From: Plantactinospora sp. KBS50
Lineage (GTDB): Bacteria; Actinomycetota; Actinomycetes; Mycobacteriales; Micromonosporaceae
Direction of reading: 5' to 3'
NCBI RefSeq assembly: GCF_002285795.1
Contig: NZ_CP022961.1
Coordinates: 3,414,001-3,478,000 of the forward strand
DNA length: 64,000 bases
Below, in pieces: positions 20,240 to 38,443 of this stretch. The position numbers and the translations under genes were made by a program. The notes under the pieces are model-generated. The model was not told where the DNA came from and did no database searches. It saw only the letters and a program-made list of their open reading frames with translations. Each line of letters begins with the position of its first letter. Within the stretch, counting starts at the first letter, position 1.

Positions 20240-20270
20240 CTCGGAGTCCCCTTCGTCGGGTCGGTTCGGT

Positions 20271-20310: not shown

Positions 20311-20329
20311 ACCGCCGGCGCGGCGGCGC

Positions 20330-21301
20330 TCAGCCGCGGACGGCCAGGTCCGGTACGGCCGGTTCCGCCGCGTCCGGACCGGGCCGGGCCGGACGCAGTT
20401 CGTCGAGCCGGACCAGCGCCACCCCGGCGACGATCAGCACCCCGCCGAGCAACTGTCCGGCGGTCGGCAGTTCGGCCAGCGCCAGCCAGGCGATCAGCAC
20501 CGCGAACAGCACCTCGGTGAGTCCGACGAAGGAGGAGAGCCGGGCTCCGAGGGCGCGGGCCGCGCCGATGCCGGTGACGTAGGCGACCACGCTCGCGATC
20601 AGCGACAGCCCGACCACCGGGACGAGCCAGCCGAGCCGGTGTCCGCCCAGTTCGACGGTGCCGAAGGTGGCGTGCAGCGGCAGCACGCCGAGCAGGCCGA
20701 CCCCGAGCAGCACGACGGTGCCGACCGCCATCCCGCCGCAGGCCAGCACGACCGGGGACAGGTCGCTGTCGGTCCGGGCGGACAGTACGAAGTAGCCGGC
20801 CAGCCCCACGGCGGCGCCCAGCCCCCAGAACACGCCCGCCGGGTGGATCCCGCCGCCGCCGGTGATGTTGAGCACCAGGGCGAGTCCGGCGATGGCGGCG
20901 ATCGAGCCGGCGACGGTGAGCCGGCGCGGCGGCTGGCGGTGCACCAGCCACGTCCAGCCGACCACCAGGATGATGCCGAGATACTCCAGCAGCAGGGCCA
21001 CGCCCACCGGGAGATACCGTACGGCGTTGAAGAAGCAGCCCTGGGCGGCGCCCACGGCGAGCAGCCCGAAGGCGCCGATGACGCCGGCGTGCCGGGGCAG
21101 GGTGCGCCACCTGCCGCGCAGGGACCAGGCGGCGGGTCCGGCCAGGATCAGGGCCGCCACCCCGACCCGGGTGGCCACCGCCGCGTCGGAGGACCAGCCG
21201 GCGTCGATGAGGGAGCGGGCGAAGGTGCCGGAGGTGGCGAACGCGGCGGCGGACAGCAGCGCCAGCCCGAGGCCGACACCGGCGAAACGTTGCTGCGGCA
21301 T
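20330..21301 (-). CDS. EamA-family (DMT) transporter
   Basis: A 323-residue integral membrane protein with about ten hydrophobic helices in two EamA halves (about residues 10-140 and 160-300). Substrate classes in this family range from amino acids to drugs and metabolites; none can be assigned. It is divergent from a CGNR zinc-finger regulator, a pairing seen often in actinobacteria, so the regulator probably controls it. The ATG at 21301 has GGAG in the expected position (rev of CTCC at 21306-21309). Confidence 0.88.
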   Translation of the reverse strand: MPQQRFAGVGLGLALLSAAAFATSGTFARSLIDAGWSSDAAVATRVGVAALILAGPAAWSLRGRWRTLPRHAGVIGAFGLLAVGAAQGCFFNAVRYLPVGVALLLEYLGIILVVGWTWLVHRQPPRRLTVAGSIAAIAGLALVLNITGGGGIHPAGVFWGLGAAVGLAGYFVLSARTDSDLSPVVLACGGMAVGTVVLLGVGLLGVLPLHATFGTVELGGHRLGWLVPVVGLSLIASVVAYVTGIGAARALGARLSSFVGLTEVLFAVLIAWLALAELPTAGQLLGGVLIVAGVALVRLDELRPARPGPDAAEPAVPDLAVRG

Positions 21302-21362
21302 GGATCTCCTCGCACGTGTAATGACTGAAACCGCCGTATGCTAGTGACGCTAGACCGATGGA
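21302..21362. promoter_or_regulatory. Divergent promoter region with CTAG inverted repeat
   Basis: The 61-bp gap between the transporter and its putative regulator contains CTAG-TGACG-CTAG (21341-21353), an inverted repeat, and TATGCT just before it. This is the natural place for a CGNR regulator operator controlling both genes. Confidence 0.35.
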
Positions 21363-21956
21363 GTGACAGGGGTCAAGTTGCTTTTCACCCATGACACCGA
21401 GTGCACGCTGAGCGCCACCGCCGCGCTGGTGAACACCGCCGGCGGCGATACCGGAAGCGGAACCAGCGACACCGGGAACACCGAGGGACTGCCCGACGTC
21501 GCCGCACTCGACGCGTTCGTCACGGCGCACAACTGGACCGGACGGCACGAACGGACCGAGGCCGAGCTGCACGGGGTACGCGAGCTGCGGCCCCGGCTGC
21601 GCCGGATCTGGTACGCCGACGAGGACGGCGTGGTGGAGATCGTGAACGGGCTGCTGCGCGCGGCGGCGGCGCTCCCGCAGTTGATCAAGCACGACGACCA
21701 GCCGTACCACCTGCACGCCGTGCCGCGGGACGCGCCGCTGCCCACCCGGATGGCCGTGGAGGCCGCCATGGCGCTGGCGGACCTGATCCGCGCCGGCGAA
21801 CTGGACCGGCTGCGCCGCTGCGCCTATCCCGGCTGCGCCAACGTGCTGGTCGACCTGTCCCGCAACCGCAGCCGGCGGTTCTGCGACGCCGGCTGCGGCA
21901 ACCGGGCCGCGGTCAGCGCCTACCGGGCGCGCAAGGCCGCCGGCCGGAAGTCATAG
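21363..21956 (+). CDS. CGNR zinc-finger regulator (ABATE domain)
   Basis: A 197-residue protein with an N-terminal ABATE-like (stress-induced transcription regulator) domain and a C-terminal CGNR zinc finger. The finger reads CAYPGCANVLVDLSRNRSRRF then CDAGCGNRAAVSAYRARK, with four cysteines and the diagnostic CGNR. Family members are predicted DNA-binding regulators. The GTG at 21363 is the likely start. Its divergent arrangement with the EamA transporter suggests local control. Confidence 0.85.
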   Translation: MTGVKLLFTHDTECTLSATAALVNTAGGDTGSGTSDTGNTEGLPDVAALDAFVTAHNWTGRHERTEAELHGVRELRPRLRRIWYADEDGVVEIVNGLLRAAAALPQLIKHDDQPYHLHAVPRDAPLPTRMAVEAAMALADLIRAGELDRLRRCAYPGCANVLVDLSRNRSRRFCDAGCGNRAAVSAYRARKAAGRKS

Positions 21957-22012
21957 ACAGTTCCTAGCTTCCGCCTCGCCCGCTCCCAGGCGCCGCGACC
22001 AGGCTCGGACCC

Positions 22013-22096
22013 ATGAGCAAGCGCTGGGTGCGAATCGTCGGGCTCCGGGGGCCGGCACCGCTGGGCCGGACCGGCCGCCGCGGGTGGCCGGCATGA
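22013..22096 (+). CDS. Possible 27-residue small ORF
   Basis: An ATG at 22013 opens a 27-codon frame (MSKRWVRIVGLRGPAPLG...) whose TGA overlaps the ATG of the glycosyltransferase at 22093. It may be a translated leader that couples to the next gene. There is no homology evidence and it could be chance. Confidence 0.25.
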   Translation: MSKRWVRIVGLRGPAPLGRTGRRGWPA

Positions 22097-23312
22097 GCGC
22101 GCCGACCGCCGCGCTGCGGGCGGCACGGACGGCGCGTACGCCCCCGCGACCACCGTCCTGGACGTGGTCATCCCGGTTCACAACGAGGAGACCGACCTCG
22201 AACCGTGCGTCCGGCGGCTGCACGACTACCTGGCCACCACCTTCCCGTACCCGTTCCGGATCACCATCGCGGACAACGCGAGCACCGACGCCACCCCGGC
22301 GGTGGCGCTCCGGCTCGCCGCCGAACTGCCGCGGGTCACCGCCGTACGGCTGGCGGAGAAGGGCCGGGGACGGGCGCTGCGGGAGGTGTGGTTCCGCTCC
22401 GAGGCCGCGGTCCTGGCGTACATGGACGTGGACCTGTCCACCGATCTCGCCGGCCTGCTCCCGCTGGTGGCCCCGCTGATCTCCGGGCACTCGGAGCTGG
22501 CCATCGGCACCCGGCTGGCCCGCGGTTCCCGGGTCGTGCGCGGGCCGAAACGGGAACTCATCTCCCGCGGCTACAACCTGCTGCTGCGCGGCGCCCTGGC
22601 GGTCCGCTTCTCCGACGCGCAATGCGGCTTCAAGGCCATCCGCCGGGACGTGGCCCGCCGGCTGCTGCCGCTGGTCCGGGACACCGGCTGGTTCTTCGAC
22701 ACCGAACTGCTGGTACTGGCGCAGCGGGCCGGGATGCGCATCCACGAGGTACCGGTGGACTGGGTGGACGACCCGGACAGCCGGGTGGACCTGCTCGACA
22801 CCGCGCTGACCGACCTGCGCGGCATCGTCCGCCTGGTCCGGGCGCTCGCCGGCGGCGCGCTGCCGGTCGCGGAGCTGCGCCGGGACCTCGGCCGGGCGCC
22901 GCTGGCCCCGGGCGTGCCGGCCGGCCTGGGCCGGCAACTCGTCCGGTTCGTCACGGTCGGCGTCGCGTCCACCCTGGCGTACCTGCTGCTGTACGCGGCG
23001 CTGCGGACCGGCCTGGGTGCCCAGCCGGCGAACCTGCTGGCGCTGCTGGTGACGGCGATCGGCAACACGGCGCTGAACCGGCGGCTCACCTTCGGGGTAC
23101 GCGGTGCCGCGGGCGCCGCGCGCCAGCACGCCCAGGGGCTGCTGATCTTCGCCCTCGGGCTCGTCCTGACCAGCGGCTCGCTCGCCGTGCTGGGCGCGCT
23201 GCTCCAGCAGCCGCCGCGGCTGGTGGAGCTGACCGTGCTGACCGTGGCCAACCTCACCGCCACGCTGCTGCGCTTCCTGCTGCTGCGCCGCTGGGTCTTC
23301 CGCACCGCCTGA
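22093..23312 (+). CDS. Family 2 glycosyltransferase fused to a GtrA-like membrane domain, 5' frameshift
   Basis: A GT-A glycosyltransferase (residues about 25-240) followed by a GtrA-like four-helix membrane domain (about 280-400). Visible motifs are VVIPVHNEETDLEPCVRRLH, the donor-site acidic YMDVDLSTDLAGL, and FSDAQCGFKAIRRDVARRLLP. Such proteins act on polyprenyl-phosphate carriers. The conserved frame opens only at GTG 22164, inside the first beta strand. The natural ATG at 22093 (ATGA overlap) is in another frame. One extra C in the five-C run at 22141-22145 would join them and give a TTVLDVVIPVHNEE N-terminus, so I read a one-base deletion. Confidence 0.8.
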
Positions 23313-23447
23313 GGGCGGTCGGCGGCCACCCGGCCGGAATGCGACCTCGGTCATATCCGGGGAATGTGCCAGGCCATTCGCATTAGGCTCGGTGCGCCGC
23401 CCGGCCGCGGGGGACGGCGGCACAGCGCAGGGGGGATTGCACCGATC

Positions 23448-24944
23448 ATGTCCGTTACCACCTCCACCGGATCCGGCCTGCCCGAAACACCGGTTGCCGC
23501 CGGCAGCGCACATCCACGGCGCTGGGTGGCGCTGGCGGTCATCGCCGTCGCCCAGCTGATGGTCGTTCTCGACGCCACGATCGTGAACATCGCGCTGCCC
23601 CAGGCCCAGGCCAGCCTCGGCATCTCCGACGCCGACCGGCAGTGGGTGGTCACGGCGTACACGCTGGCCTTCGGCGGTCTGCTGCTGCTCGGCGGCCGGA
23701 TCGCCGACTACTGGGGGCGCAAGCGCACGTTCCTCGTCGGCATCGTCGGCTTCGCCCTGGCCTCCGCGGTCGGTGGCGTGGCGCAGAGCGGCGAGCTGCT
23801 GTTCGCCGCCCGCGCCCTGCAGGGCGCCTTCGGCGCGCTGCTGGCCCCCGCCTCGCTGGCGCTGCTCACCGTCCTCTTCACCGAGGCGCACGAGCGGGCC
23901 AAGGCGTTCGCGGTGTACGGCGCCATCGCCGGCGGCGGTTCGGCGGTCGGGCTGGTGCTCGGCGGCGTCCTCACCGAGTACGCCAACTGGCGCTGGTGCC
24001 TGCTGGTGAACGTGCCGGTCGCGCTGGTCGCGCTGGTCGCCGCGCTGCCGCTGGTGCCGGAGAGCCGGGCGCACGGCAACACCCGGTACGACGTACCCGG
24101 CGCGCTGGTGATCACGGCCGGCCTGGTCACCCTGGTGTACGGCTTCACGAAGGCGGCCGAGGACGGCTGGGGCGCCACCGCGACCATCGCGCTGATCGCC
24201 GCGGGGGTGGTGCTGATCGCCGCGTTCGTGCTCATCGAGCTGCGGTCCAGCCATCCGCTGCTGCCGCTGCGGATCGTGCTGGACCGCAACCGGGGCGGCG
24301 CGTTCCTGGCCTCGATGCTCATCGGCGCCGGCCTGTTCGGGGCGTTCCTGTTCCTCACCTTCTACTTCCAGGTGGTGCTGCGGTACAGCCCGGTCAAGGC
24401 CGGCCTGGCGTCGCTGCCGGTGACCGCCGGCGTACTCATCGCCGCCACCCTGGCCAGCCAGCTCATGCCGCGACTGGGCGCCAAGCCGCTGATGCTCACC
24501 GGCGCCGCCCTGGCCGCGTCCGGCATGCTGCTGCTCACCCGGATCGGCGTGGACACCTCGTTCCCGGCGCACCTGCTGCCCGCCCAGGTCGTCCTCGGGC
24601 TGGGCCTGGGTTTCACCTTCGTCCCGCTGTCCAGCCTCGCCCTGGTGGGCGTGCCGGAACACGACGCCGGTGCGGCCAGCGCGGCGCTGAACGCCACCCA
24701 GCAGGTCGGCGGCTCGCTGGGCACCGCCCTGCTGAACACCATGTACACCAGCGCGGTGACCGCGTACCTCGCCAGCCACCTGCCGCCGGACCCGGTCACC
24801 CAGGTGCGGGGACTGGTGCACGGCTACACCGTGGCGTTCGCCTGGGGGGCCGGGCTCATCCTGCTGTCCGGGGTGGCCACCGCGGTCCTGATCACGGTCC
24901 GCCGGCGGGATATTCCGACCGGAAACGCCATCCACGTGGGATGA
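23448..24944 (+). CDS. DHA2-family MFS transporter (EmrB/QacA type)
   Basis: A 498-residue exporter with 14 predicted membrane helices. The helix-1 motif LMVVLDATIVNIALPQAQ, motif A (GGRIADYWGRKRTF) and motif C in helix 5 (GAIAGGGSAVGLVLGGVLTE) are intact. Members pump drugs or other small molecules out by proton antiport. The ATG at 23448 follows a GGGGGATT stretch. It ends 39 bp before smpB and about 600 bp from the lanthipeptide synthetase stop. It could serve as that product's exporter, but nothing in the sequence shows it. Confidence 0.88.
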   Translation: MSVTTSTGSGLPETPVAAGSAHPRRWVALAVIAVAQLMVVLDATIVNIALPQAQASLGISDADRQWVVTAYTLAFGGLLLLGGRIADYWGRKRTFLVGIVGFALASAVGGVAQSGELLFAARALQGAFGALLAPASLALLTVLFTEAHERAKAFAVYGAIAGGGSAVGLVLGGVLTEYANWRWCLLVNVPVALVALVAALPLVPESRAHGNTRYDVPGALVITAGLVTLVYGFTKAAEDGWGATATIALIAAGVVLIAAFVLIELRSSHPLLPLRIVLDRNRGGAFLASMLIGAGLFGAFLFLTFYFQVVLRYSPVKAGLASLPVTAGVLIAATLASQLMPRLGAKPLMLTGAALAASGMLLLTRIGVDTSFPAHLLPAQVVLGLGLGFTFVPLSSLALVGVPEHDAGAASAALNATQQVGGSLGTALLNTMYTSAVTAYLASHLPPDPVTQVRGLVHGYTVAFAWGAGLILLSGVATAVLITVRRRDIPTGNAIHVG

Positions 24945-24983
24945 TCGGTCGCCGTCGCGGCGGCGTCGGGTACGGGAGGTGCG

Positions 24984-25487
24984 GTGGCCAGGGAGACCGG
25001 ACGCAAGGCCGTCGCCTCGAACCGCAAGGCCCGCCACGAGTACACGATCCTCAAGACGTACGAGGCCGGGCTCGTGCTGGTCGGCACCGAGGTCAAGTCG
25101 CTGCGCGCCGGCTACGTGTCGCTGGTCGACGCGTTCGCCCAGGAGCGGGACGGCGAGATCATGCTGTACGGGCTGCACATCGCCGAGTACGGCTTCGGTA
25201 GCTGGACCAACCATCAGCCGCGGCGGACCCGCAAGCTGCTGCTGCGCCGGGTGGAGATCGACCGGATCCTGGAGAAGCTGCGGGAGCCGGGGCTGACCCT
25301 GGTCCCGCTGTCCATCTACTTCTCCGACGGCTGGGCCAAGGTCGAACTGGGGCTGGCCCGCGGCCGGCGGACCTACGACAAGCGGCAGGCCATCGCCGAG
25401 CGCGACGCGAACCGGGAGATCGCCCGCGAGCTGGGTCGACGGCTCAAGGGCCGGCCCGGGTCGACCCGCCGGACCTCCCGGGCCTGA
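24984..25487 (+). CDS. smpB: SsrA-binding protein SmpB
   Basis: A 167-residue SmpB, the partner of tmRNA in rescue of stalled ribosomes. Family hallmarks are present: [61 protein letters not shown], and the basic C-terminal tail that folds in the decoding centre. It differs from the usual actinobacterial sequence at several places ([15 protein letters not shown]). The tmRNA gene, often adjacent, is not seen in this window, and the usual ftsX neighbour is also absent. It may be a second copy. Confidence 0.9.
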
Positions 25488-25543
25488 GCCCGTCCCCGCG
25501 CCCCGTCCTCGCGCCCCGTCACGCCGCGATGCCCTCGACCGGC

Positions 25544-28500
25544 TCAGCCGGACGGGCAGGCCGCCACCGCGTCGGGGCGCAACGACCAGCCCGGCGGCGG
25601 CGCCGGCAGCGGGCCGCCCGGGTACGCCGACCGGCCACCCGCGGCGCCCGCCGCCGGGTCCGCGCCGCCAGCGGGAGAACCCGCGGCGGCGGCCGGGGGG
25701 CCCGCGGGCGAGTCCGGTCCGGCCAGCCAGGCTGCCCAACTCGGCGCCGGCAGCCCGGCCGGACCGGACCGCCGGGCCAGCCGCCGGACGAACCCGAGCG
25801 TGCCGGCCAGCCCGTGCGCCCAGGAGGCGCCGTGACCGTCGGCGTCGTCGCCGAACCGGGGCCGTCGGGCCGAACCACCGGCGCGCAGCAGCAGATGCCG
25901 GCCGGCCGTGGCCGCGGCGTCCCAACCCGGCCCGCCGCCGTCGGTCAGGGCCAGGTCCACCAGCAGGTTGCCGACCCCCGCGCTGCCGCAGCACTGTCCG
26001 GGTACGCCGATCCGGGGCAGCAGCGTCACGCACTGCTCGCCCAACCGGCCGGCCAACGCGCTCAGCGCCGGATCGGCCAGCACGCTCCCGCCGTACAGCA
26101 GGACCTGGGCCATCCCGGCGAGGCCCTGGCACCAGGAGACGGCCAGCGACGCCGCCCGCGGGCCGCCGGCGCGCTGGACCAGCGACTCGGCCCGGCCGGC
26201 CAGCAGGGCGACCCGGTCGGCCGCGGCGGCCCGGTGCGCCGGCTCGCCGGTGACCTCGGCGAGGCACAGCAGCAGTTCGGCCGTACCGGCCAGGCCGCGC
26301 GCGCGACCCGCGGACGGTTCGACGGCCGCGGCCTCGGGCAGCCGGTCCGCGGCGGTCCGGCCGGCCGGCGCCGGACCGGCCAGGATCGATTCGGCGCACC
26401 GCCGGGCCACCGCCAGGTGCGCCCGATCGCCCGTACTCCGGTGCAGCAGCAGGTGGCCCAGACCGACCCCGGCCGCGCCGGCCATCAGGTCGTCGCCCGC
26501 GGGCAACCAGCCGGCGCCCGGGACGACCGGTTCCGGGTGGTCCGGGCCGGCGAAGCCGCGGTCGCGCGCCAACTGGAGGAAGACGTCCACCCCGGTACGC
26601 CCGGCGAGCAGCCCCGGCGGCGGATTGCGCCGGGTCACCGCGCGGACCGTGTGGTGCAGCAACGCCCGCAGCGCGTCCGGCACGCCGGGCCGGTCGGCGT
26701 GCTGCAACAGTTCGAGACCGACGCCCGCCGTCCCCCGGTAGATGCCGATGTCGGCGCCGGCCGGTTCCGCCAGCAGCCGGCCGGTGGCCACCAGCAGGTC
26801 CGCCACCAGGTGATCCGTGATCTCCGCGGCCAGTTCCGGGCCGAGGTCCGGCGGCTCGGGCCGGCTCCGCGGGCCGCTGCGCCGCCGCGGCTCGGCCCCC
26901 GGCCCGGCGCCGGTGCCGGTGCCGTTGCGGAGGCCGCCGCCGGTGCCCGTGCCAGTGCCGGTGCCGCCGCCGGTACCCGTGCCGGTGCCGCCGCCGGTGC
27001 CCGTGCCCGTGCCCGTGCCGGTGCCGGTGCCGGTGCCGGTGCCGGTGCCCGTGTCCGTGCCGGCGCTGGTGCCCGTGCCGGCGCTGGTGCCCGTGCCGGC
27101 GCTGGTGCCGTGGCCGTGGCCGTGCGTGCCGTCGCCGGCCAGCCGGGCCGCGGCGGTCCGCATGGTGTCGTCGTCCCCGCTGACCAGGTCGGCGATCGCC
27201 GCGAACACCCCGGTGGGCCGGCCACCGCAGCGGGACCGGATGGTCTGCAACGCACGCCGGCGGGGCAGTTCCAGGTCGTCGTCCACGGTCACCGGGTGCA
27301 GCCCGTCGGCCGCGAACATCAGCACCATGCCGAGCGCGTGCAGGTCGTCGGTGTCCCGCGGCGGCTCGTGCCGGCGCTGCCGCGCCGGGGCGTACCCGGC
27401 GGTGCCGCCCGGCACGTACGCGCCCGCGTAGGCGGCCAGGCCGAAATCGATGAGCGCCGCCCGGTCGCCGTCGATGACCACGTTGCGGGAGGTGAGATCG
27501 CGGGCCACCACCCCGCGGCGGTGCAACTCCAGGACGCCGCGGGCCAGCCGGGCGGCGAGCCCGTCGAGGGTACGGCCGCCGCCGGGCGCCGCACCGGCCG
27601 GCAGGTACCGGCCGTGGTGCGCGACGTCGTCGACCAGGTTGTACGGTCCCACGTCGGTGGTCACCAGGAACTCGTCGTCGCCGTGCCGGAAGTGGTCCAG
27701 AAACCGCGGCACGTCGGGCATCCCGGTCAACGCCTGGAGCACCCGCCGCTCGTTGCGCAAGCGCAGACGGACGTCGCCGGCCTCCTCGTGCTCGTCGACG
27801 TGCGCCCGCGCCTGCTTCACCACCACCGTGCCGCCGTCGCGCTCGTCGATCGCCCGGTACACGTTGCCGCGCCCCGACTCGTAGATCCCGGCCACCACCC
27901 GGTAGTAGCCGCCCAGCACCGCCAGCCGGTCCACCGCGTGCAGGTCCACCCGCTCCCCGGTGAACGGGTCGATCGGGCAGGCCGGCGGTGCGCAGCGCAC
28001 CCCCGCGAGTCCGGCCGGCCGCTCCAGCAGCCCGCCGGTCAGCGCCGTACCGATCAGTCCGGGGCCGGTCAGCCCCGTACCGGCGGGTCCCGGGCCGACC
28101 AGGCCCGCGCCGGCCGCCTGGCCGCCGTCCGGGCCGGCGCCGAGCATTCCGCCCGAGCCGAGCCCGGCATGCACGCCCGGGCCGCCGATCGGGCCGTACC
28201 AGTAGTAGACCGGCGCCGCCGGATCGACCCGCCGCTCGCCCAGCACCCGCGGCGCCGGCTCCCCGCGCAGCAACTCGGCGAGGGACCAGCCCAGTTCCCG
28301 CACCCGGTCCGGTTCCGGGTAGATGGTGACCGCCTTGCCCACCGCCGCAGGCACGCTGTACCCGTCGTTCAAGCGGGCCAGCACCCGGGCCGAACGGGCC
28401 AACCGGACCGGGCAGCCCTGCGCCAGCAGCAGCGGCAACAACCGCTCCACCAGCGCGGGAAAGGCCACCGACCGGCACGAGACGTGCAGCTTCCAGCCGT

Positions 28501-28630
28501 ACTCCGGAAGCACGACCGCGCCACCTGGCACCAGCGTCAGCCAGGTGGCGTCGCACCGCAGCAGGTAGCCCGGCCCCCCGTACATCGCGACGGCGCGGGC
28601 GACCCGATCCTTCAACTCGGCGCTCTCCAT
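25544..28630 (-). CDS. Lanthipeptide synthetase, class III/IV architecture (lyase-kinase-cyclase)
   Basis: A 1028-residue three-domain enzyme predicted to phosphorylate, eliminate and cyclise a ribosomal peptide. The N-terminal region (about 1-180) fits the OspF-like lyase part (GYLLRCDATW, YGWKLHVS, PVYYWYGPI). The kinase-like domain (about 262-500) has VVVKQARAHVD, VVARDLTSRNVVIDGDRAALIDFGLA and a DTDDLHALGMVL segment. A Thr-Gly dipeptide linker (about 505-580) follows. The LanC-like cyclase (about 610-960) keeps zinc ligands SWCQG (Cys834) and CCG (Cys880, Cys881), plus SWAHGLAG. Retained zinc ligands point to class IV rather than class III. A Gly/Ala/Leu-rich insert of about 70 residues lies before the kinase. 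The precursor candidate ends 24 bp upstream. Confidence 0.85.
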   Translation of the reverse strand: MESAELKDRVARAVAMYGGPGYLLRCDATWLTLVPGGAVVLPEYGWKLHVSCRSVAFPALVERLLPLLLAQGCPVRLARSARVLARLNDGYSVPAAVGKAVTIYPEPDRVRELGWSLAELLRGEPAPRVLGERRVDPAAPVYYWYGPIGGPGVHAGLGSGGMLGAGPDGGQAAGAGLVGPGPAGTGLTGPGLIGTALTGGLLERPAGLAGVRCAPPACPIDPFTGERVDLHAVDRLAVLGGYYRVVAGIYESGRGNVYRAIDERDGGTVVVKQARAHVDEHEEAGDVRLRLRNERRVLQALTGMPDVPRFLDHFRHGDDEFLVTTDVGPYNLVDDVAHHGRYLPAGAAPGGGRTLDGLAARLARGVLELHRRGVVARDLTSRNVVIDGDRAALIDFGLAAYAGAYVPGGTAGYAPARQRRHEPPRDTDDLHALGMVLMFAADGLHPVTVDDDLELPRRRALQTIRSRCGGRPTGVFAAIADLVSGDDDTMRTAAARLAGDGTHGHGHGTSAGTGTSAGTGTSAGTDTGTGTGTGTGTGTGTGTGTGGGTGTGTGGGTGTGTGTGGGLRNGTGTGAGPGAEPRRRSGPRSRPEPPDLGPELAAEITDHLVADLLVATGRLLAEPAGADIGIYRGTAGVGLELLQHADRPGVPDALRALLHHTVRAVTRRNPPPGLLAGRTGVDVFLQLARDRGFAGPDHPEPVVPGAGWLPAGDDLMAGAAGVGLGHLLLHRSTGDRAHLAVARRCAESILAGPAPAGRTAADRLPEAAAVEPSAGRARGLAGTAELLLCLAEVTGEPAHRAAAADRVALLAGRAESLVQRAGGPRAASLAVSWCQGLAGMAQVLLYGGSVLADPALSALAGRLGEQCVTLLPRIGVPGQCCGSAGVGNLLVDLALTDGGGPGWDAAATAGRHLLLRAGGSARRPRFGDDADGHGASWAHGLAGTLGFVRRLARRSGPAGLPAPSWAAWLAGPDSPAGPPAAAAGSPAGGADPAAGAAGGRSAYPGGPLPAPPPGWSLRPDAVAACPSG
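26895..27130. repeat. Hexanucleotide repeat encoding a Thr-Gly linker
   Basis: Runs of GTGCCG/GTGCCC hexamers on the plus strand (GGCACC on the coding strand) extend over more than 200 bp with a few variant units. They encode a nearly pure Thr-Gly tract, with GTSA variants at its start, between the kinase and cyclase domains of the lanthipeptide synthetase. Confidence 0.9.
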
Positions 28631-28654
28631 CCCGAACGCTCCCGACCGACGGCT

Positions 28655-28822
28655 CTAGCGGCCGGTGGCGTACAGCGACGGGTCGGTCGCCGCGGGCCGG
28701 GGAAGGCAGTCGGCGCACCGCAGGCGAGCCCGTTCGAGCTGGGGGCCGTCGTCGAACGCGACAACGGGCTCCAGCGCTTCCGGACCGGCGTCCCTGGGTT
28801 CCAGACCGAGCGGTGCGGTCAC
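28655..28822 (-). CDS. Candidate lanthipeptide precursor peptide (LanA), 55 residues
   Basis: A GTG at 28822 with an excellent GGAGAGGA site six bases upstream opens a 55-codon gene that ends 24 bp before the synthetase ATG. The first 35 residues are leader-like: acidic and hydrophobic, with LEPVVAFDDGPQLERARL. The C-terminal 20 residues form a small core candidate: Cys36 and Cys39 (RCADC) followed by Thr46, Ser49 and Thr53. Thus two cysteines and three dehydratable residues are available, with the cysteines ahead of the Ser/Thr. An alternative start at GTG 29008, with a weaker site, would give 117 residues. The role is inferred from size, composition, ribosome binding site and position. Confidence 0.6.
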   Translation of the reverse strand: MTAPLGLEPRDAGPEALEPVVAFDDGPQLERARLRCADCLPRPAATDPSLYATGR

Positions 28823-29046
28823 AATGGGTCCTCTCCGGCCGGACCGGCCTGATCCCAGGAGGTCTTGTGGATCTCCGCGGACCGACGCGGAGTCCGGACG
28901 GTGATCCGGCGAGGCGGCGGTCCGACCGGATACCGGTGTCGTATCCGGGTGGACCGCCAACGCCGCCGGGCGTCGCCCGGGCCCGCCGTGGCCCGCTTGT
29001 AGATCCACGAGACACCCCCTAGACCGTGGATCCCGTAGGCTCCCGT

Positions 29047-29075
29047 ACGCTACCGAACACGTCCAGTTATCTCAA
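29047..29075 (-). promoter_or_regulatory. Promoter for the lanthipeptide operon
   Basis: On the minus strand TTGAGA (29070-29075) and TAGCGT (29047-29052) are separated by exactly 17 bp. This is the best promoter-like pair upstream of the precursor gene and would give a leader of about 220 bases. Confidence 0.5.
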
Positions 29076-29540
29076 TGTGCCGCTGTGTGGGTCGGAACGG
29101 TCATCGGCCGAGGAACCGGTTACGGAGATCCACTGGTCGCGGCCTTCCCGGGCCAGGAAGTTTGCCGAGGTCGCGCCGGGCGCCACCGCCAGCGCAGCCG
29201 CCACGTGCCCGTCCGCCGCGCGGCCGCCGCGGCACGATGGACCGTACGCGCCGGTAGACACGGACCGTCCGGGTAGGAGCCGTCCGGCCCGGACCGCCAC
29301 GCACAGATGACACCCCTCGGCGCATCGCCGACACGTCCCGTTACACGCTTCGTCGCGGGCGTACGGGGTCGGCCGTGCCGCCGTCCGCGGTCGAGCGGGA
29401 CAGACCCGGCGAACCCGACACTCCTCCCGGGTCGCCCGTCCGGCGCCGGCCGACCCGCGTCCGGGGTCCGACCCCTCGACACCGGAGCGCCCCCAGTGGA
29501 CAATGGCGGGCACACCCCCCGGAGCACCCCACCGGAAAGC
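29076..29540. other. Intergenic stretch without a supported gene
   Basis: Several overlapping frames exist on both strands, but none has a ribosome binding site or recognisable domain. I see no convincing promoter or structure here except that its right end merges into the CRISPR leader-like sequence. Confidence 0.5.
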
Positions 29541-29608
29541 GTGTGATCTTGCGCGGCAAAGTGAACGGAACCCGAGAAGTTGATCCGTAGCACCGCAGGT
29601 CAAGAAGC
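29541..29608 (+). promoter_or_regulatory. CRISPR leader-like sequence
   Basis: Just before the first repeat the base composition drops in GC (for example AAAGTGAACGGAACC) and ends with CGCAGGTCAAGAAG, which resembles the repeat-proximal leader end of actinobacterial type I-E arrays. This suggests the array still has its leader and reads left to right. Confidence 0.45.
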
Positions 29609-29697
29609 CCGCTCCCCGCACACGCGGGGATGATCCGAGTAGGGGTCTGAACCCGGGGCTCAGCGCCGACCGCTCCCCGCACACGCGGGGTGATCCT
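29609..29697 (+). CRISPR. Two-repeat type I-E CRISPR remnant
   Basis: Repeat 1 (29609-29637) contains the palindromic core CTCCCCGCACACGCGGGGAT and ends GATCCG, the standard actinobacterial type I-E repeat. Repeat 2 (29670-29697) is the same but lacks one A after the GGGG and diverges at its last bases, as terminal repeats often do. The spacer between them (29638-29669) is exactly 32 nt, the I-E norm. No cas gene is in the window, so the array is orphaned here. Confidence 0.85.
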
Positions 29698-29720
29698 TCG
29701 CCGGTCAGTGGCTCGGTGCG

Positions 29721-29799
29721 ATGGTCAACTCGTCTTCGGCGAAGTTGGGGTGTTGCGGGCGTCCGGACACCCCGACTTCACCGAAGACGAGTCGACCAT
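29721..29799. repeat. 33-bp imperfect inverted repeat (large hairpin)
   Basis: Arms 29721-29753 and 29767-29799 pair over 33 positions with three mismatches around a 13-base loop. The left arm begins ATGGTCAACTCGTCTTCGG. It lies 24 bp after the CRISPR remnant and 41 bp beyond the stop codon of the KDG kinase gene. It could be the terminator of the long uronate operon or a small mobile-element-like hairpin; it lacks a T tract. Confidence 0.85.
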
Positions 29800-29840
29800 G
29801 GTGAGCTGCGACGGTCGACTGGGTGCCGCCGCCGCGCGGG

Positions 29841-30947
29841 TCAGCGGTCGACGCGGGCGCCGCCGCCGCGGACCAGCTTCTCCACCTCGGCGAGGCTGGC
29901 CATCGAGGTGTCGCCGGGTGTGGTCATCGCCAGCGCCCCGTGCGCCGCGCCGTACTCGACCGCCAGGGCGAGGTCACCGAGTTCGAGCAGGCCGTAGATG
30001 AGGCCGGAGGCGAAGCTGTCCCCGCCGCCCACCCGGTCCAGGATCTGCAACCCGGGGCGGTGGGTGGCGCTGACGAAGCCCTCCGGCGACCAGGCTGTCG
30101 CGCCCCAGTCGTTGACCGTGGCCGTGTGCACCGTGCGCAGCGTCGTGGCGATCACCTTCAGATGCGGGTACGCGGTGACCACCTCCTTGAGCATCCGGCG
30201 GAAGTTCGCCGCGTCCAGGGTGGACAGATCCTCGGCGGTGTCCGGCACCTCGAAGCCGAGGCCGGCGGTGAAGTCCTCCTCGTTGCCGATCAGCACGTCG
30301 ACGTACCGGACCAGCCGCCGGTTGACCTCCCGGGCCCGCTCCTGGCCGCCGACCGCCTTCCACAGGCTCGGCCGGTAGTTGAGGTCGTACGAGATGATCG
30401 TGCCGTGCCGGCGGGCGGCGGACATGGCCGCCTCGACGACGTCCGGGGTGCCCTCGGCCAGGCCGGCGTAGATGCCGCCGGTGTGCAACCAGCGCACCCC
30501 GAGGGTGCCGAACAGGTGCTCCCAGTCGACGTCCTCGGGCCGCAGTTGGCTGGCGGCGCTGGCGGCCCGGTCGGAGACGCCGACGGCGCCGCGCACGCCG
30601 AAGCCGCGTTCGGTGAAGTTGAGCCCGTTGCGGACCCCCCGCCCGATCCCGTCGTAGGGCATCCAGCGCAGCAGCGCGGTGTCCACGCCGCCGGTGAGGA
30701 TCAGGTCCTCGACCAGCCGGCCCACCTCGTTGTCGGCCAGCGCGGTCACCACGGCGGTGCGCTGCCCGAAGCAGCGGCGCAGCCCGCGGGCCACGTTGTA
30801 CTCGCCGCCGCCCTCCCAGACCCGCAACGACCGGGCGGTCCGGATCCGGCCCTCCCCCGGGTCCAACCGGAGCATCACCTCACCGAGGCTGACCAGGTCG
30901 TACCGGCAGTCGTCCCGGTCCCGCGCCGTCAGTCCGGTCCCGCTCAT
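29841..30947 (-). CDS. kdgK: 2-keto-3-deoxygluconate kinase (PfkB family)
   Basis: A 368-residue PfkB sugar kinase predicted to phosphorylate 2-keto-3-deoxygluconate (KDG) to KDPG. Family motifs are present: the N-terminal VSLGEVMLRLDP, the glycine region WEGGGEYNVARGLRRCFG, and the C-terminal catalytic DRVGGGDSFASGLIYGLL with the catalytic Asp. The ATG at 30947 has GGAGG five bases upstream. The KDPG aldolase stop overlaps its start (ATGA), so the product is made next to the enzyme that cleaves it. It is the last gene of the minus-strand operon. Confidence 0.88.
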   Translation of the reverse strand: MSGTGLTARDRDDCRYDLVSLGEVMLRLDPGEGRIRTARSLRVWEGGGEYNVARGLRRCFGQRTAVVTALADNEVGRLVEDLILTGGVDTALLRWMPYDGIGRGVRNGLNFTERGFGVRGAVGVSDRAASAASQLRPEDVDWEHLFGTLGVRWLHTGGIYAGLAEGTPDVVEAAMSAARRHGTIISYDLNYRPSLWKAVGGQERAREVNRRLVRYVDVLIGNEEDFTAGLGFEVPDTAEDLSTLDAANFRRMLKEVVTAYPHLKVIATTLRTVHTATVNDWGATAWSPEGFVSATHRPGLQILDRVGGGDSFASGLIYGLLELGDLALAVEYGAAHGALAMTTPGDTSMASLAEVEKLVRGGGARVDR

Positions 30948-31570
30948 CCAGCCCTCCCACCCGCGCGCACGGCCGCCGCCGCGAGCGCGCTGATCTCGTC
31001 CCACCGGCCCTCCCGCAGCAGCGGGCGGGCCACCATCCAGGTGCCGCCCACGGCGAGGACCGCCGGGATCGAAAGGTAGTCGGCCAGGTTGGCCGCGTCG
31101 ATGCCACCGGTCGGCACGAACCGGACCGACGGGAACGGCGCCGACAACGCGGACACCATGGCCACGCCGCCGAGCCGCTCGGCGGGGAAGAATTTCACCG
31201 TCTCCAGGCCGGCGTCCAGCGCCATCATGATCTCCGTACCGGTCGCCACCCCGGGAAACAGCGGTACGCCCCGCTGGGCGCACCGGCCGGCGACCGCCGG
31301 GGAGAAGCCGGGGCTGACCACGAACCGGGCACCCGCCTCCACGGCCCGGTCCACCTGGTCGGGGTTGACCACGGTGCCGGCTCCCACCAGCAGTTCCGGC
31401 TCCTTGGCCAGGGTACGGATGGCCGCCTCGGCGGCGGCGGTCCGGAACGTCACCTCGACGGCCCGCAGCCCGCCGGCCAGCAGTGCGGCGCCGAGCGGCC
31501 CGGCCTGGTCCGCGTCGTCGAGCACGACCACCGGCAGTACGCCGGTCTCGGCGAGAACCTCGGCGATCAC
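30944..31570 (-). CDS. eda: KDPG / KHG aldolase
   Basis: A 208-residue class I aldolase that splits 2-keto-3-deoxy-6-phosphogluconate into pyruvate and glyceraldehyde 3-phosphate. The signatures are VEVTFRT (catalytic Glu), GAGTV, and the Schiff-base lysine in ETVKFFPAE, followed by FVPTGGI. Length is exactly typical. It overlaps the cupin gene by 4 bp and the kinase by 4 bp, completing the last two steps of uronate breakdown. Confidence 0.93.
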   Translation of the reverse strand: MIAEVLAETGVLPVVVLDDADQAGPLGAALLAGGLRAVEVTFRTAAAEAAIRTLAKEPELLVGAGTVVNPDQVDRAVEAGARFVVSPGFSPAVAGRCAQRGVPLFPGVATGTEIMMALDAGLETVKFFPAERLGGVAMVSALSAPFPSVRFVPTGGIDAANLADYLSIPAVLAVGGTWMVARPLLREGRWDEISALAAAAVRAGGRAG

Positions 31571-31875
31571 GGCAGCAGGTGCATCCAGCTGAAGACCAGC
31601 GGCTCGTCGCCCTCGCTGATCAGGTGGTGGTCCTCGCCCGGCTCGATGAGCAGCACGTCCCCGGCGGTGAACCGGTCGGCCCGCGCGCCGTTGATCTCGA
31701 TGGTGCCGCTGCCCTGGAAGATGCAGAAGACCTCGGGCACCGTGTGGGTGTGCGGCCCGGGCTCGTTGTGGGTGCGGAAACCGGGCTCGTCGTACCGGCG
31801 GAACCCGCCCCGGTCGATCTGCCGGCCGTCCGGGATGGCCGTGCCGACCACGTCAGCGAGCGTCAGTTTTCGCAT
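31567..31875 (-). CDS. Small cupin-domain protein
   Basis: A 102-residue single-domain cupin with metal ligands in order: PGPHTHTVPEVFCIFQG (two His and a Glu) and GEDHHLI (third His). Single-domain cupins of this size in pectin loci include KdgF, which opens unsaturated uronates released by lyases. That role would fit the two pectate lyases nearby, but sequence alone does not prove it. It overlaps the preceding oxidoreductase gene by 23 bp and the aldolase by 4 bp. Confidence 0.8.
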   Translation of the reverse strand: MRKLTLADVVGTAIPDGRQIDRGGFRRYDEPGFRTHNEPGPHTHTVPEVFCIFQGSGTIEINGARADRFTAGDVLLIEPGEDHHLISEGDEPLVFSWMHLLP

Positions 31876-33052
31876 GGGAACTCTCCTTCGGTGATGGGTG
31901 CAGGACCGTCCGGTACGGCGGCACCGCCCACGGCACGCCCAGCTCGGACGGTAGCGCTCCGCGCTCGGCCGCGGCCCGCAGCAGGTCCGCCACGCCGTCG
32001 ATGACCTGACCGGCGCCCTCGGGGTGCGGCCGGAGGTACCGGTCGGGCACCGGCGTGGGTACCGGTGCGGTGGCGAGCACCGCGAGCATCGCGGTGAACA
32101 TCCGGGTCCGGGCCAGCGGCGCCACCAGCGGTACGCCGGCGGCCCGGTGCGCCAGCAGGTTCTCCAGCAGGTCGACCCGGCCGGCCGGAGGGCGCCAGTC
32201 CGGGTCGCCGGGCAGCCGCAGCCGGTCCGTCGGATACTCCAGCACCGCGCCGCCGGCGTGGATCTCCCCCGGTACGAACGTGTCGGAGCTGAGCGTGACC
32301 GCCACCTCGACGGTGCCGCCGGCCAGGTCGGTGAGGCGCAGGCAGGCGGTGTCCTCCACCTCGATGTCCCGGGTGCGGTACCACTCCAGGTCCACCGCCA
32401 CCGGCCCGCGCGGCCAGCCGGTCGCGGCGTCGGCCACCGCGATCGACTGCATCAGCGCGTGCGCGAACGGGTTGGCCAGCGCGCCGTCGGCGACGAACCG
32501 CCCGTGCAGCCGGCGGCGGCCGGCCCAGGGCGAGCGACGCCAGTACGCATCCTGCCGCCACCAGGCGCCGAGCCCGGCGGCCAGCAGTGGCCCGCCGGTG
32601 TGACCCCGGGCCGCGGAGCCGTCCCCGCCCGACGGGGCCACCGCGGCGGCCGCGGCCGACACCAGGCCGGGCAGGGCCGCCGAGCCGAGGGCCTGGAACC
32701 CGACCTGGCAGGACCGGCCGGTCCGGTCCAGCGCGGCGAGCAGGTCGGCGTGCTCGTCCAGCGAGGACACCGGCGGCTTCTCCAGCAGCAGGTCCGCGCC
32801 GGCGGCCACGGCGGCCAGCGCGATCTCCAGGTGGGTGTGCGGCGGCGTACAGATGATCACCACGTCCGGCGCGGTGGCCGCGAGCATCGCGGCCAGCTCG
32901 GTGAAGACCGGTACGTCGCCGGGATCCTCGACCGGGTTGGTGTCGCAGAGCGCGACCGGCTCGACCAGACCGCGCTCGGCGAGCCGGGCCAGGTTGCGCC
33001 GGTGCGACCGGCCGTGCCCGCCCGCACCCACCAGCGCCACCCGAGCGCTCAC
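31853..33052 (-). CDS. Gfo/Idh/MocA-family oxidoreductase
   Basis: A 399-residue NAD(P)-dependent sugar oxidoreductase. The Rossmann motif VALVGAGGHGRSHRRNLARL opens the protein. The family EKPP motif (LLLEKPPVSS, about residue 92) carries the conserved Lys. The C-terminal domain contains DGALANPFAHALMQS. The GTG at 33052 has GGAG eight bases upstream, and that ribosome binding site plus start lies within a 60-bp unit that is duplicated upstream. Substrate is unknown; context suggests a uronate or a sugar from pectin side chains. Confidence 0.88.
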   Translation of the reverse strand: MSARVALVGAGGHGRSHRRNLARLAERGLVEPVALCDTNPVEDPGDVPVFTELAAMLAATAPDVVIICTPPHTHLEIALAAVAAGADLLLEKPPVSSLDEHADLLAALDRTGRSCQVGFQALGSAALPGLVSAAAAAVAPSGGDGSAARGHTGGPLLAAGLGAWWRQDAYWRRSPWAGRRRLHGRFVADGALANPFAHALMQSIAVADAATGWPRGPVAVDLEWYRTRDIEVEDTACLRLTDLAGGTVEVAVTLSSDTFVPGEIHAGGAVLEYPTDRLRLPGDPDWRPPAGRVDLLENLLAHRAAGVPLVAPLARTRMFTAMLAVLATAPVPTPVPDRYLRPHPEGAGQVIDGVADLLRAAAERGALPSELGVPWAVPPYRTVLHPSPKESSHAKTDAR

Positions 33053-33192
33053 CGGAACATCTCCGTTTGCGGCTGCGGGGCTGGCAAACCCGGCCAGCTC
33101 CTCGCGCTCACCGGAACATCTCCGTTCGCGACTGCGGGGGCTGGCAGACCCGGCCAGCTCATCGCGCTCACTGAAGTTTCTCCGTTCGCGAG
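33047..33192. repeat. 60-bp tandem duplication of a stop/start junction
   Basis: Unit 1 (33047-33105, 59 bp) and unit 2 (33106-33165, 60 bp) are about 88% identical, and a 27-bp partial third copy follows (33166-33192). Each copy holds, on the minus strand, an ACGGAGA ribosome binding site, a TGA or its equivalent and a GTGAGCGC start. The unit boundary is the natural overlap between the end of the DUF624 gene and the start of the oxidoreductase gene. Confidence 0.92.
33049..33171 (-). CDS. 40-residue micro-ORF between two coupled genes
   Basis: The GTG at 33171 overlaps the DUF624 stop, and the TGA at 33049-33051 overlaps the oxidoreductase GTG at 33052. The frame therefore bridges two GTGA junctions exactly. 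It encodes two versions of the same 20-residue unit (MSAMSWPGLPAPAVANGDVP, then VSARSWPGLPAPQPQTEMFR). Each start has a GGAG-type site. It is a direct product of the tandem duplication and would be translated by coupling; a cellular function for the peptide is not implied. Confidence 0.6.
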   Translation of the reverse strand: MSAMSWPGLPAPAVANGDVPVSARSWPGLPAPQPQTEMFR

Positions 33193-33776
33193 AGGCGGCG
33201 GGTGACCGCGTGCAGCGCCGCCAGCGCGTACCCGACGAGGATCGGGACGGTGACCGGCGCGACGAGCGTGCCGAGCAGCAGCACCAGGCTGCTCACCCCG
33301 ACGGCGGCCAGCCAGCGCGCCGGCCGGTCGGCGCACTGCCGGGCGACGGCGGTGGCCGCCGCCCGCCAGCCCCGGCCGTCGGTGTGACCCACCTCGACCA
33401 CGACCAGACCGACGTAGCCGGCCAGCAGCGCCGCGACGGCCCCGGTCAGGACCAGGACGGGCGGCCCGCCGGGTACGGCGCCGCCGGCCAGCCCGATCAG
33501 GTCGGCGGCCAGCAGCCCGGCGCCGGCCAGTGCGACCAGGCTCGCGCCGGCGCCCGGCAGCAGCGCCCGACGAAACCGGTCGATCGTGCGGTGCGCCGGC
33601 GGCCAGCTTCCGGTGTCCAGCCAGTCTCGCAGGGCGGCGCTGGCCGTGCCGGCGGCCGCCGCGGCGCTCAGCAGCGGCAGGGCGGCGATGGTGAGCAGGA
33701 TGCCCAGCGTCGCCAGGTCGGTGGCGTCCCGGGTGATGTCCCGCCAGTCCCGCCGGTCGGTCGCCTCCACGGTCAT
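33168..33776 (-). CDS. DUF624 (YesL-like) membrane protein
   Basis: A 202-residue protein with four to five hydrophobic helices (for example TLGILLTIAALPLLSAAAAAG and SSLVLLLGTLVAPVTVPILV). DUF624/YesL proteins are encoded with ABC transporters for plant-polysaccharide oligosaccharides in many Gram-positives, such as the rhamnogalacturonan locus of Bacillus subtilis. Their role is unknown; a transporter accessory function is suspected. It starts 4 bp after the permease gene stop. Confidence 0.75.
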   Translation of the reverse strand: MTVEATDRRDWRDITRDATDLATLGILLTIAALPLLSAAAAAGTASAALRDWLDTGSWPPAHRTIDRFRRALLPGAGASLVALAGAGLLAADLIGLAGGAVPGGPPVLVLTGAVAALLAGYVGLVVVEVGHTDGRGWRAAATAVARQCADRPARWLAAVGVSSLVLLLGTLVAPVTVPILVGYALAALHAVTRRLSRTEKLQ

Positions 33777-33780
33777 CGGC

Positions 33781-34694
33781 TCAACCCTTGATCCCGCTGG
33801 TGTTGATGCCCTCGACGAGCATCCGTTGGAACGCGACGAAGAACAGGAAGACCGGCAGCAGCGAGAGCACGGACATGGCGAACATCGGCCCGATGGAACT
33901 CTGGCCGGTGGAGTCGATGAACAGGGTCAGCGCCACCGGAACGGTGTAGTCCGGCAACTGGGACAGGTAGACCAGTTGGCGGAAGAAGTCGTTCCAGGTC
34001 CAGATGAAGGTGAAGATGGCGGTGGTGACCAGCGCCGGCCGGCTCAGCGGCAGGATGACGTGCCGGAAGATGCCGTACGCGTTGGCGCCGTCGATCTTCG
34101 CGGCCTCGTCCAGTTCGCGCGGGATGCCGCGCATGAACTGCACCATGAGGAACACGAAGAACGCGTCGGTGGCCAGGAAGTGCGGGATCAGCAGCGGCAG
34201 GTAGGGCCACTGCGCGCCGACCAGGCCGAGGGTGCGGAACAGGATGTACTGCGGCACGATCAGCACGTGTCCGGGCAGCAGCAGGGTGCCGATCATGATG
34301 GTGAACCAGACCCCGCGCAGCCGGAACCGCAGCCGGGCCAGCGCGTACGCCGCGAGCAGGCAGGAGACCGCGTTGCCCAGCACGGCGAGCACGCTGACCA
34401 GCGCGCTGTTGAAGAAGAACCGGCCGAAGCTGACGTCGAAGTTGGTCCACCCTGCGAGTAGTTGCCCGGGGTGAACTTCTGCGGCAGCAGCCCGATGTTG
34501 TTGACGATCTCCGCCTGTGACTTCACCGAGGCGCCGAGCATCCACACCAGCGGGTAGAGCACCACGGCCAGGATGGCGATCAGGATGACCAGCCGGACCG
34601 CCTGCCGGCGGCGCAGGCTGGCCCGGCGGCGGTCGGCGGTCCGGGCCGGTCCGGTGCCGGTCGGCGGTGGACCGGCGACGCGCAGCGTGGTCAT
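33781..34694 (-). CDS. Sugar ABC transporter permease (MalG type), frameshifted
   Basis: Second permease of a CUT1-type importer. The N-terminal part (MTTLRVAG..., one helix LVILIAILAVVLYPLVWMLG) and the rest (VSFGRFFFNSALVSV to SGIKG) are in two frames that meet at about 34453. One added G in the GGG run gives a continuous NYSQGWTNFDVSFG. The EAA loop ELDEAAKIDGANAYGIFRHVILPLSRP, which contacts the ATPase, is intact. Six helices are expected. The ATPase subunit is not encoded here and is probably a shared MsiK-like protein elsewhere. The ATG overlaps the upstream permease stop. Confidence 0.85.
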
Positions 34695-35668
34695 GAGTTC
34701 GTCCCGTCGGAGTAGTGCACCCAGAACCGCCCGGTGGAGAAGAAGACCGCGGTGATCACGCTGACGGCGATCAGGAAGACCCAGGCCATCGCCGAGGCGT
34801 AGCCCATCTCCAGGTTGGTGAAGCCGGACACGTAGAGCTTGAGCGTGTACATCAGGGTCGAGTCGACCGGGCCGCCGGTGCCGCGGCTGACCACGAAGGC
34901 CGCCGTGAAGCCCTGGAAGCCGTGGATCGTCTCCAGCACCAGGTTGAAGAAGATGACCGGGGAGAGCATCGGCAGCGTCACGTGGAAGAACTGGCGGGAC
35001 CGGCCCGCGCCGTCCACCGCGGCCGCCTCGTACAGCTCGGTCGGCACCTGCTTCAGCCCGGCCAGGAAGATCACCATGGGTGCGCCGAACTGCCAGATGG
35101 CCAGCGCCATGAGGGTCTCCAGCGCCCAGTCCGGGTCGTTCACCCACGGCTGCCCCTGGATGCCGAACAGGCCGAGGAACGAGTTCACCGCGCCGTCCCC
35201 GCTGAACATGCTGCGCCACACGATGGCCAGCGCCACGCTGCCGCCCAGCAGCGACGGCAGGTAGAACAGGCCGCGGAACAGCCCGACCCCGCGCCACGCC
35301 TTGTTCAGCAGCAGCGCCACGCCGAGCGCGGCGGCCAGCTTCAGCGGCACGGCCACCAGGGCGAACGTCACGGTGACCCGGACGGCGTGCCAGTACGCCG
35401 GGTCGGCGGTGAACATCCGGCGGTAGTTGGCCAGCCCCACCCACTCGACCTCCGACCACGGGGTCAGCACGTCGTAGTTGGTGAAGCTCAGGTAGAGCGA
35501 CAGCAGCATCGGGATCGCCGTGATGCCCAGCAGACCGAGCAACCAGGGCGACAGGAAGACGTACCCGGCCAGACCCTCGCCTCCGGCGCCCGGTCCGGAC
35601 CGCTTGCGGGCGGTCCGGACCGGGCGCGGGGCGCGGTGGATCTGCTCGGGCGCCGTGGTCACGGCCAC
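34691..35668 (-). CDS. Sugar ABC transporter permease (MalF/UgpA type)
   Basis: First permease, 325 residues and six helices, starting with a basic cytoplasmic tail and GYVFLSPWLLGLLGITAIPMLLSLYLS. The EAA motif ELYEAAAVDGAGRSRQFFHVTLPMLSP is complete. With the binding protein and the second permease it forms an importer for a sugar. The genetic setting (pectate lyases, uronate catabolism, LacI regulator) points to oligogalacturonides or uronates. Confidence 0.9.
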   Translation of the reverse strand: MAVTTAPEQIHRAPRPVRTARKRSGPGAGGEGLAGYVFLSPWLLGLLGITAIPMLLSLYLSFTNYDVLTPWSEVEWVGLANYRRMFTADPAYWHAVRVTVTFALVAVPLKLAAALGVALLLNKAWRGVGLFRGLFYLPSLLGGSVALAIVWRSMFSGDGAVNSFLGLFGIQGQPWVNDPDWALETLMALAIWQFGAPMVIFLAGLKQVPTELYEAAAVDGAGRSRQFFHVTLPMLSPVIFFNLVLETIHGFQGFTAAFVVSRGTGGPVDSTLMYTLKLYVSGFTNLEMGYASAMAWVFLIAVSVITAVFFSTGRFWVHYSDGTNS

Positions 35669-35702
35669 GAGCGGGCTCCTCTCCGCGGCGATATCACGCC
35701 GG

Positions 35703-37046: not shown

Positions 37047-37066
37047 CTGCGCTCACTCCTCGGGCA

Positions 37067-38428: not shown

Positions 38429-38443
38429 GAGAGGGGTTCACGG

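Follow-up and report, generated by a model that had tools for sequence, protein, structure and literature searches.

Genes and features of the locus

Within the window, by which we mean the whole stretch of 64,000 nucleotides that was analysed, a small gene and a large one lie in tandem on the minus strand, with 24 nt between the TAG of the former and the ATG of the latter. The features read from the sequence and from alignments are as follows.
28830–28836, minus strand: ribosome binding site GGAGAGG, 7 nt ahead of the GTG start
28655–28822, minus strand: precursor gene (lanA) of 55 codons with GTG start and TAG stop; conserved at homologous loci and found by a leave-one-out profile at E 1.2e-9
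28718–28822, minus strand: probable leader, residues 1–35, with the motif LGLEPRDAG (alignments A2 and A5; putative leader/core boundary)
28658–28717, minus strand: probable core, residues 36–55, CADCLPRPAATDPSLYATGR, two Cys followed by Thr46, Ser49 and Thr53; both cysteines invariant across the 11 rows of alignment A2
25544–28630, minus strand: predicted class IV (LanL-type) lanthionine synthetase of 1028 aa (NF038150, Pfam domains, match to CuvL)
28181–28630, minus strand: phospho-Ser/Thr lyase domain, residues 1–150, Lys47 and His49 kept (Pfam, alignments)
27131–27925, minus strand: kinase domain, residues 236–500, Lys272, Asp378 and Asp395 kept (Pfam, alignment)
25766–26848, minus strand: LanC-like cyclase domain, residues 595–955, Cys834, Cys880 and Cys881 (CCG-type zinc site) and Asp714 kept (alignment)
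26297–26299, minus strand: codon CGC, Arg778, where the LanC catalytic His (NisC His212) is expected (DNA read and alignments)

The small frame runs from GTG at 28822–28820 to TAG at 28657–28655 and encodes the 55-residue peptide MTAPLGLEPRDAGPEALEPVVAFDDGPQLERARLRCADCLPRPAATDPSLYATGR. An initial annotation had proposed a small gene here without naming a strand. The frame is real and present as it described, as are the ribosome binding site, the 24-bp spacing to a lyase-kinase-cyclase synthetase and the positions given for Cys36, Cys39, Thr46, Ser49 and Thr53; Thr2 is the sole further Ser or Thr of the peptide. Its ceiling of two rings also holds, since the peptide has only two cysteines.

Neither NCBIfam nor Pfam returned a match to the precursor, NCBIfam returned none to three sister precursors, a PDB sequence search with the window precursor gave nothing up to E 10 and an Rfam scan of the window gave nothing at gathering scores. 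In the 2020 study of Walker et al. (PMC7268733), 86% of the class IV precursors identified were unannotated, so that a lack of annotation would be nothing out of the ordinary here. In the open-licence literature, among the matches listed, no published account of the window precursor was found and the motif strings CPATCGPC, CPYTCGPC and LLELAPR were absent; text matches to LLELEPR, again among those listed, were, where placeable, words such as AlleleProfileR.

In the synthetase, the domains RamC_N, Pkinase and LANC_like all score above their Pfam cut-offs. The class IV LanL model NF038150 matches at 496 bits (E 2.3e-148), below its curated cut-off of 650, which may simply not cover the clade described below; the class III model NF038151 also matches, at 215.9 bits. 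The nearest solved protein by sequence is 8car/8cav (8car at E 5.4e-106), and 8car, whose entry title names CuvL, the curvocidin synthetase, is likewise the best structural match (Z 45.0, rmsd 5.9 over 728 residues) of a model built on alignment A1 (mean pLDDT 66.0, pTM 0.63). As regards class IV membership, lyase, kinase and cyclase domains, a zinc triad and a short adjoining precursor with Cys and Ser/Thr towards its C-terminus are all found. A long Thr-Gly-rich linker (window 26864–27130, about residues 501–589) lies between kinase and cyclase and is absent from the ten A1 relatives; the synthetase also carries an insert near residues 170–205 and a C-terminal tail.

The pairing of the peptide with its synthetase was assessed by searching 354 genomes of the host's family with the peptide alone, 68 of which gave some match at E 0.1. 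Three of the non-self matches, namely the best two (G328 and G142, at E 1.8e-5 and 3.3e-5) and the seventh (G242, at E 0.0058), each immediately precede a synthetase orthologue; these orthologues are 60, 54 and 49% identical to the synthetase of the window over the aligned parts. The remaining matches look like chance: thirty loci were fetched, and apart from the window and these three, none of them (26 loci) includes a synthetase match. A profile of 15 relatives from which the window peptide had been left out, run against the 813 stop-to-stop frames of at least 25 aa in the window, recovered the precursor frame at E 1.2e-9, the sole match below E 0.04 (next frame 0.043). Comparison across genomes thus supports the proposal that the peptide is the precursor of the adjacent synthetase: homologues of the synthetase have the same kind of small frame nearby rather than another, and the leader and Cys pattern of this frame are conserved in related genomes. 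Silent and replacing codon differences in eight pairs of close-relative precursors numbered 9:6, 8:3, 11:4, 9:7, 12:11, 20:4, 11:15 and 7:15, so that clear purifying selection is confined to some of the pairs; for the window, no sufficiently close relative is available for this test. Additional precursors scattered in the manner of ProcM substrates were absent from the window's genome at E 0.1 among the 150 of 223 first-look candidates scored.

Two other readings of the pair were considered. High GC content yields many spurious frames, 90 of at least 80 aa overlapping window positions 20000–40000, but it is hardly credible that the small frame is such a product of a GC-rich intergenic stretch: its sequence and position are conserved across genomes and a ribosome binding site precedes it. 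A chance frame was rejected because the peptide search reaches synthetase orthologues and the leave-one-out profile finds the frame. It is also very improbable that the pair consists of a class III (labionin-type) precursor and a LanKC enzyme. Such an enzyme would have the identical domain order, and NF038151 does match at the score given above; against this, the window cyclase has the full zinc triad, which nine of the 38 synthetases read outside the clade, those nine being presumably class III, do not have, NF038150 reaches 496 bits, and the core lacks the Ser-x2-Ser-xn-Cys order. The labionin type was rejected on the NCBIfam scores and the zinc triad.

Placement in the curvocidin (CuvL) clade

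A search of the same 354 family genomes with the lyase-kinase region found a match in 29 genomes at E 1e-20, in eleven of them, including that of the window, at E 4.9e-48 or better; a twelfth, in G099, is a broken synthetase. Among 394 genomes drawn from the class, 71 matched at E 1e-40, with five outside the host's family below 1e-119 and the next at 1.7e-78. In the family of one of those five, a search of 341 genomes with the CuvL cyclase gave a match in 53 at E 1e-30, and stretches were fetched for 20 of these genomes. One genome (G1032), which we take to be Thermomonospora curvata, matches 8car with 100% identity over the 328 residues searched.

An alignment of 33 clade synthetases and 15 others was used for a tree of 48 rows, in which all 33 CCC-type rows, including that of G1032, fall on one side of a branch with support 100/100, separate from the CHG-type LanL and LanKC-like rows; the window sits next to G328 and then G142, and the placement of one long outgroup row (L085) is uncertain. 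Left out of the clade set were G004 (short), G099 (broken), G973 and G977 (frames not caught) and the Streptomyces locus L032; neither these nor the CCG row L060 stand in the tree. Whilst the tree used 15 of the 40 other rows, the reading of zinc and His positions took all 40, two of which were too short, leaving 38. The zinc site is Cys-Cys-Cys in 33 of 33 clade rows. Of the 38 others, 28 have Cys-Cys-His, nine are without a triad and one (L060, from G107) has Cys-Cys-Cys, giving Cys-Cys-His in 28 of the 29 zinc-type rows. L060 is not part of the clade as delimited here, and it too shows a CCG zinc motif together with an intact catalytic His; the CCC site alone is therefore no proof of clade membership, and its use as a mark exclusive to the curvocidin clade was rejected.

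A recognisable precursor lies near 32 of the 33 clade synthetases; for G767, none was found within the 6.8 kb read. The precursor of G777 is upstream of its synthetase on the opposite strand, G1038 has two copies and G1032 (L129) two very similar ones in tandem ahead of the synthetase, one of which reads SALLEPRDAG...GSCTVCHWGRTVLCDDFSTQA after its start; at L032, outside the 33, a copy follows the synthetase. In a list of 35 precursors, which excludes the second copy of G1032 and the G973 and G977 precursors, a PRxxG motif is present in 32, most often as PRDAG, the form found in the window (exceptions: IRDAG in G729 and PREAD in G996 and G951). As a rule, the leader motif is followed by a Cys pair, CxxC or Cx3C. 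In alignment A5 (17 rows) M1, P9, R10 and C36 are invariant and G13 nearly so; in A2 (11 rows) both C36 and C39 are invariant. The sister precursors of G328 and G142 have three cysteines and that of the window two, a number also found elsewhere in the clade in G729 and G1038.

On this sequence comparison, the window peptide and synthetase are assigned to the curvocidin clade, whose synthetase CuvL has been solved (PDB 8car/8cav). The view that the precursor was unlike known ones is therefore not supported; through this membership it becomes a further case of a precursor kind already known and little studied. An unrecognised small gene is thereby placed in a definite family, and with 35 precursor sequences the leader motif and core rules of that family become testable.

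Curvocidin, from Thermomonospora curvata, is tricyclic. Compared with the CuvL system encoded by G1032, the window shares the synthetase clade, the CCC zinc site, the position of the precursor upstream of the synthetase, the leader motif (LLEPRDAG in curvocidin, LGLEPRDAG in the window) and the beginning of the core (CTVC and CADC, respectively). It differs in that the G1032 precursors have three cysteines where the window peptide has two, too few for three rings, in that two precursors are found in the CuvL genome and one in that of the window, and in that CuvL keeps the catalytic His where the window synthetase has Arg; the two enzymes are 32–42% identical, depending on the domain.

Other systems are more distant. 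Venezuelin, the class IV product of VenL, is set beside the window by description: according to a passage of PMC2843593, its small cluster resembles the window in having no protease gene, but includes venTH transporter genes, and the peptide has four Cys and four rings, one reversed. A computational survey of 2024 (PMC11251773) includes L-CCC synthetases that combine a lyase-type dehydratase with a CCC cyclase, as here; eight such peptides are listed in its Table 1, among combinations that the survey calls new, as predictions only. ProcM-type LanM enzymes of class II have a CCG-type zinc site like that of the window (a passage of PMC10027976), but use another dehydratase and many scattered substrates, against one precursor found in the window's genome with 150 of 223 candidates scored.

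The lyase motif of L138 (G973), which is related to CuvL and has a CCG cyclase, reads GWKIYVS, with Tyr where others have the lyase His. Signs of decay recur: the G004 synthetase frame (L068) terminates after the kinase domain and its locus yielded no intact precursor, the G242 synthetase (L073) is without an internal stretch, and in G099 (L078) the synthetase is broken and the precursor intact.

Cysteine order and the cyclase histidine position

The two genes very probably form a class IV lanthipeptide unit belonging to the curvocidin clade, because the precursor search lands on synthetase orthologues and 32 of 33 clade synthetases have a precursor nearby, because of the clade tree, the CCC site and the matches to CuvL, and because the kinase and lyase catalytic residues are kept and venezuelin offers a precedent for rings in which Cys comes first. 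Against this reading stand Arg778, the NF038150 score below cut-off and, among the 15 neighbouring genes scanned, the lack of an evident lanthipeptide ABC exporter or protease gene, although venezuelin has no protease gene either and a gene for an MFS transporter is found two genes away. In such a unit, the leader, which carries the PRDAG motif, would dock on the synthetase. Phosphorylation of Thr46, Ser49 and Thr53 would fall to the kinase domain, and the lyase domain would then remove the phosphate to leave Dhb and Dha. Cys36 and Cys39 would then add to these C-terminal residues, forming at most two (methyl)lanthionine rings with Cys always N-terminal. Dehydration of the three residues is predicted with good support, as the active-site residues are intact and LanL enzymes are known to work in this way; closure of the rings by the enzyme is uncertain, since Arg778 stands where relatives have the catalytic His.

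The order of Cys before Ser/Thr, which the initial annotation had singled out as the reverse of the commonest one, follows of necessity from the sequence, provided that rings are made. The segment that starts eight residues ahead of the first Cys and ends at the last one contains no Ser or Thr, a distribution found only in the window and G142 among the 35 precursors, so that Cys would be N-terminal in every ring. Such an order is not strange for class IV. As set out in a passage of PMC2843593, the venezuelin rings Cys32-Dhb43, Cys34-Dhb39 and Cys45-Dha49 are Cys-first, three of four, and only Cys50-Dhb31 is reversed; the introduction of the 2024 survey refers to C*[ST] as an occasional motif (PMC11251773). 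The Cys-first order is thus not new for class IV, though extreme in the window peptide.

The most unusual feature lies in the cyclase. The motif AHGLAG reads RARGLAG in the window synthetase, at a position that aligns with GFAHGLAG of CuvL and the His-Gly motif of LanCL proteins and that, from the literature, we take to be that of NisC His212. All 32 other clade rows and all 29 other zinc-triad rows have histidine here, leaving Arg778, in one genome, alone among 62 zinc-triad rows (33 clade and 29 others); the nine rows without a triad have five Tyr, two Arg, one Gln and one His. NisC variants H212N, H212F and D141N keep zinc and give no cyclisation, as stated in a passage of the review PMC7296275. 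Given that NisC His212 mutants bind zinc without cyclising, ring closure in the window peptide may be impaired, spontaneous or altered. Arg778 bears on activity, not on descent. A literature search found no paper on a His-to-Arg change in such cyclases. Help in trans from another cyclase is possible; the only other LANC_like protein of this genome is a LanM by TIGR03897 (L162:3713-6805, 550.9 bits, class II), and the idea of a spare cyclase found no support.

The window synthetase deviates at five positions that are otherwise invariant, the most among the 33 rows (next row, four). In relative-rate tests against G328 with G142 as outgroup, changes numbered 69 to 22 in the cyclase, 26 to 19 in the kinase and 23 to 13 in the lyase, with p 0.03 for the contrast between domains; with G777 as outgroup, the cyclase gave 44 to 24. 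The chi-squared values for the cyclase were 24.3 (G142), 5.9 (G777), 0.1 (G1038), 0.9 (G229), 1.0 (G098) and 2.6 (G442). The effect looked strong with the nearest outgroup, but four of the six gave little or none of it; a faster cyclase or relaxed selection on it is therefore regarded as suggestive only, a hint from sequence comparison.

The pair may be real and its cyclase crippled or decaying, the product then being a dehydrated peptide with Cys36 and Cys39 free or joined by a disulfide, or with uncatalysed rings. We regard this as possible, though on the unlikely side: the uniqueness of Arg778 among zinc-triad rows, the broken invariant positions, the 69-to-22 rate result, the two cysteines of the precursor against three in the sisters G328 and G142, and the decay in relatives (G004, G099 and G242) all speak for it, whereas the zinc ligands and Asp714 are kept, the frame is open throughout its 1028 codons and the faster cyclase is not robust across the six outgroups. 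Alternatively, Arg778 might be a sequencing error in an ordinary CuvL-type cyclase. CGC is one base from CAC, and the genus is represented by a single genome in the comparison, so that no second strain serves as a check; nevertheless, with a one-contig genome that is 99.99% complete and a gene free of frameshifts, an error is improbable.

Within the class IV curvocidin-clade reading, we also put forward a more specific proposal that is speculative and, taken whole, doubtful. In it, the catalytic His has disappeared from the cyclase of a zinc-type class IV synthetase whose kinase and lyase keep their catalytic residues, and the enzyme acts on a core with all dehydratable residues after both cysteines. 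It would either release a dehydrated product whose CADC cysteines are free or form a disulfide, or close Cys-first rings independently of His. If true, the His-independent route would have its natural counterpart in the class III-like cyclases that have no triad; eight of the nine read are also without His. Arg778 is a natural variant at the residue that NisC needs for cyclisation, which makes closure by a His-free zinc LanL testable and opens a second question, whether a strictly Cys-first core needs the histidine.

Surroundings of the gene pair

Beyond the synthetase, away from the precursor, are genes for SmpB, an MFS transporter, a glycosyltransferase, a CGNR regulator, an EamA transporter and an EF-G-like protein. 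The precursor side carries sugar-acid genes, namely a PfkB kinase, a KDPG aldolase, a cupin, a GFO_IDH_MocA protein, two BPD_transp_1 permeases, a solute-binding protein and a LacI regulator, together with one gene without a Pfam match. The smpB gene (window 24984–25487) is the convergent neighbour of the synthetase; neither ARAGORN nor Rfam found a tmRNA gene in the window. At the G142 locus, a gene (L067:4905-6932) encodes an ABC_tran domain and is joined in a blastp network by genes of G229, G242, G097, G099, G328 and G348, a network that may reflect no more than the ATPase domain.

At window positions 29609–29690, in the interval that separates the precursor from the sugar-kinase gene, CCGCTCCCCGCACACGCGGGG occurs twice without mismatch, the copies lying 61 nt apart. 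The repeat resembles those of type I-E CRISPR arrays, and the pair would be a one-spacer remnant or orphan mini-array. Nearby, at 29721–29799, an inverted repeat with 33-nt arms that are 91% complementary and 13 nt apart would form a hairpin that is terminator-like or mobile-element-like.
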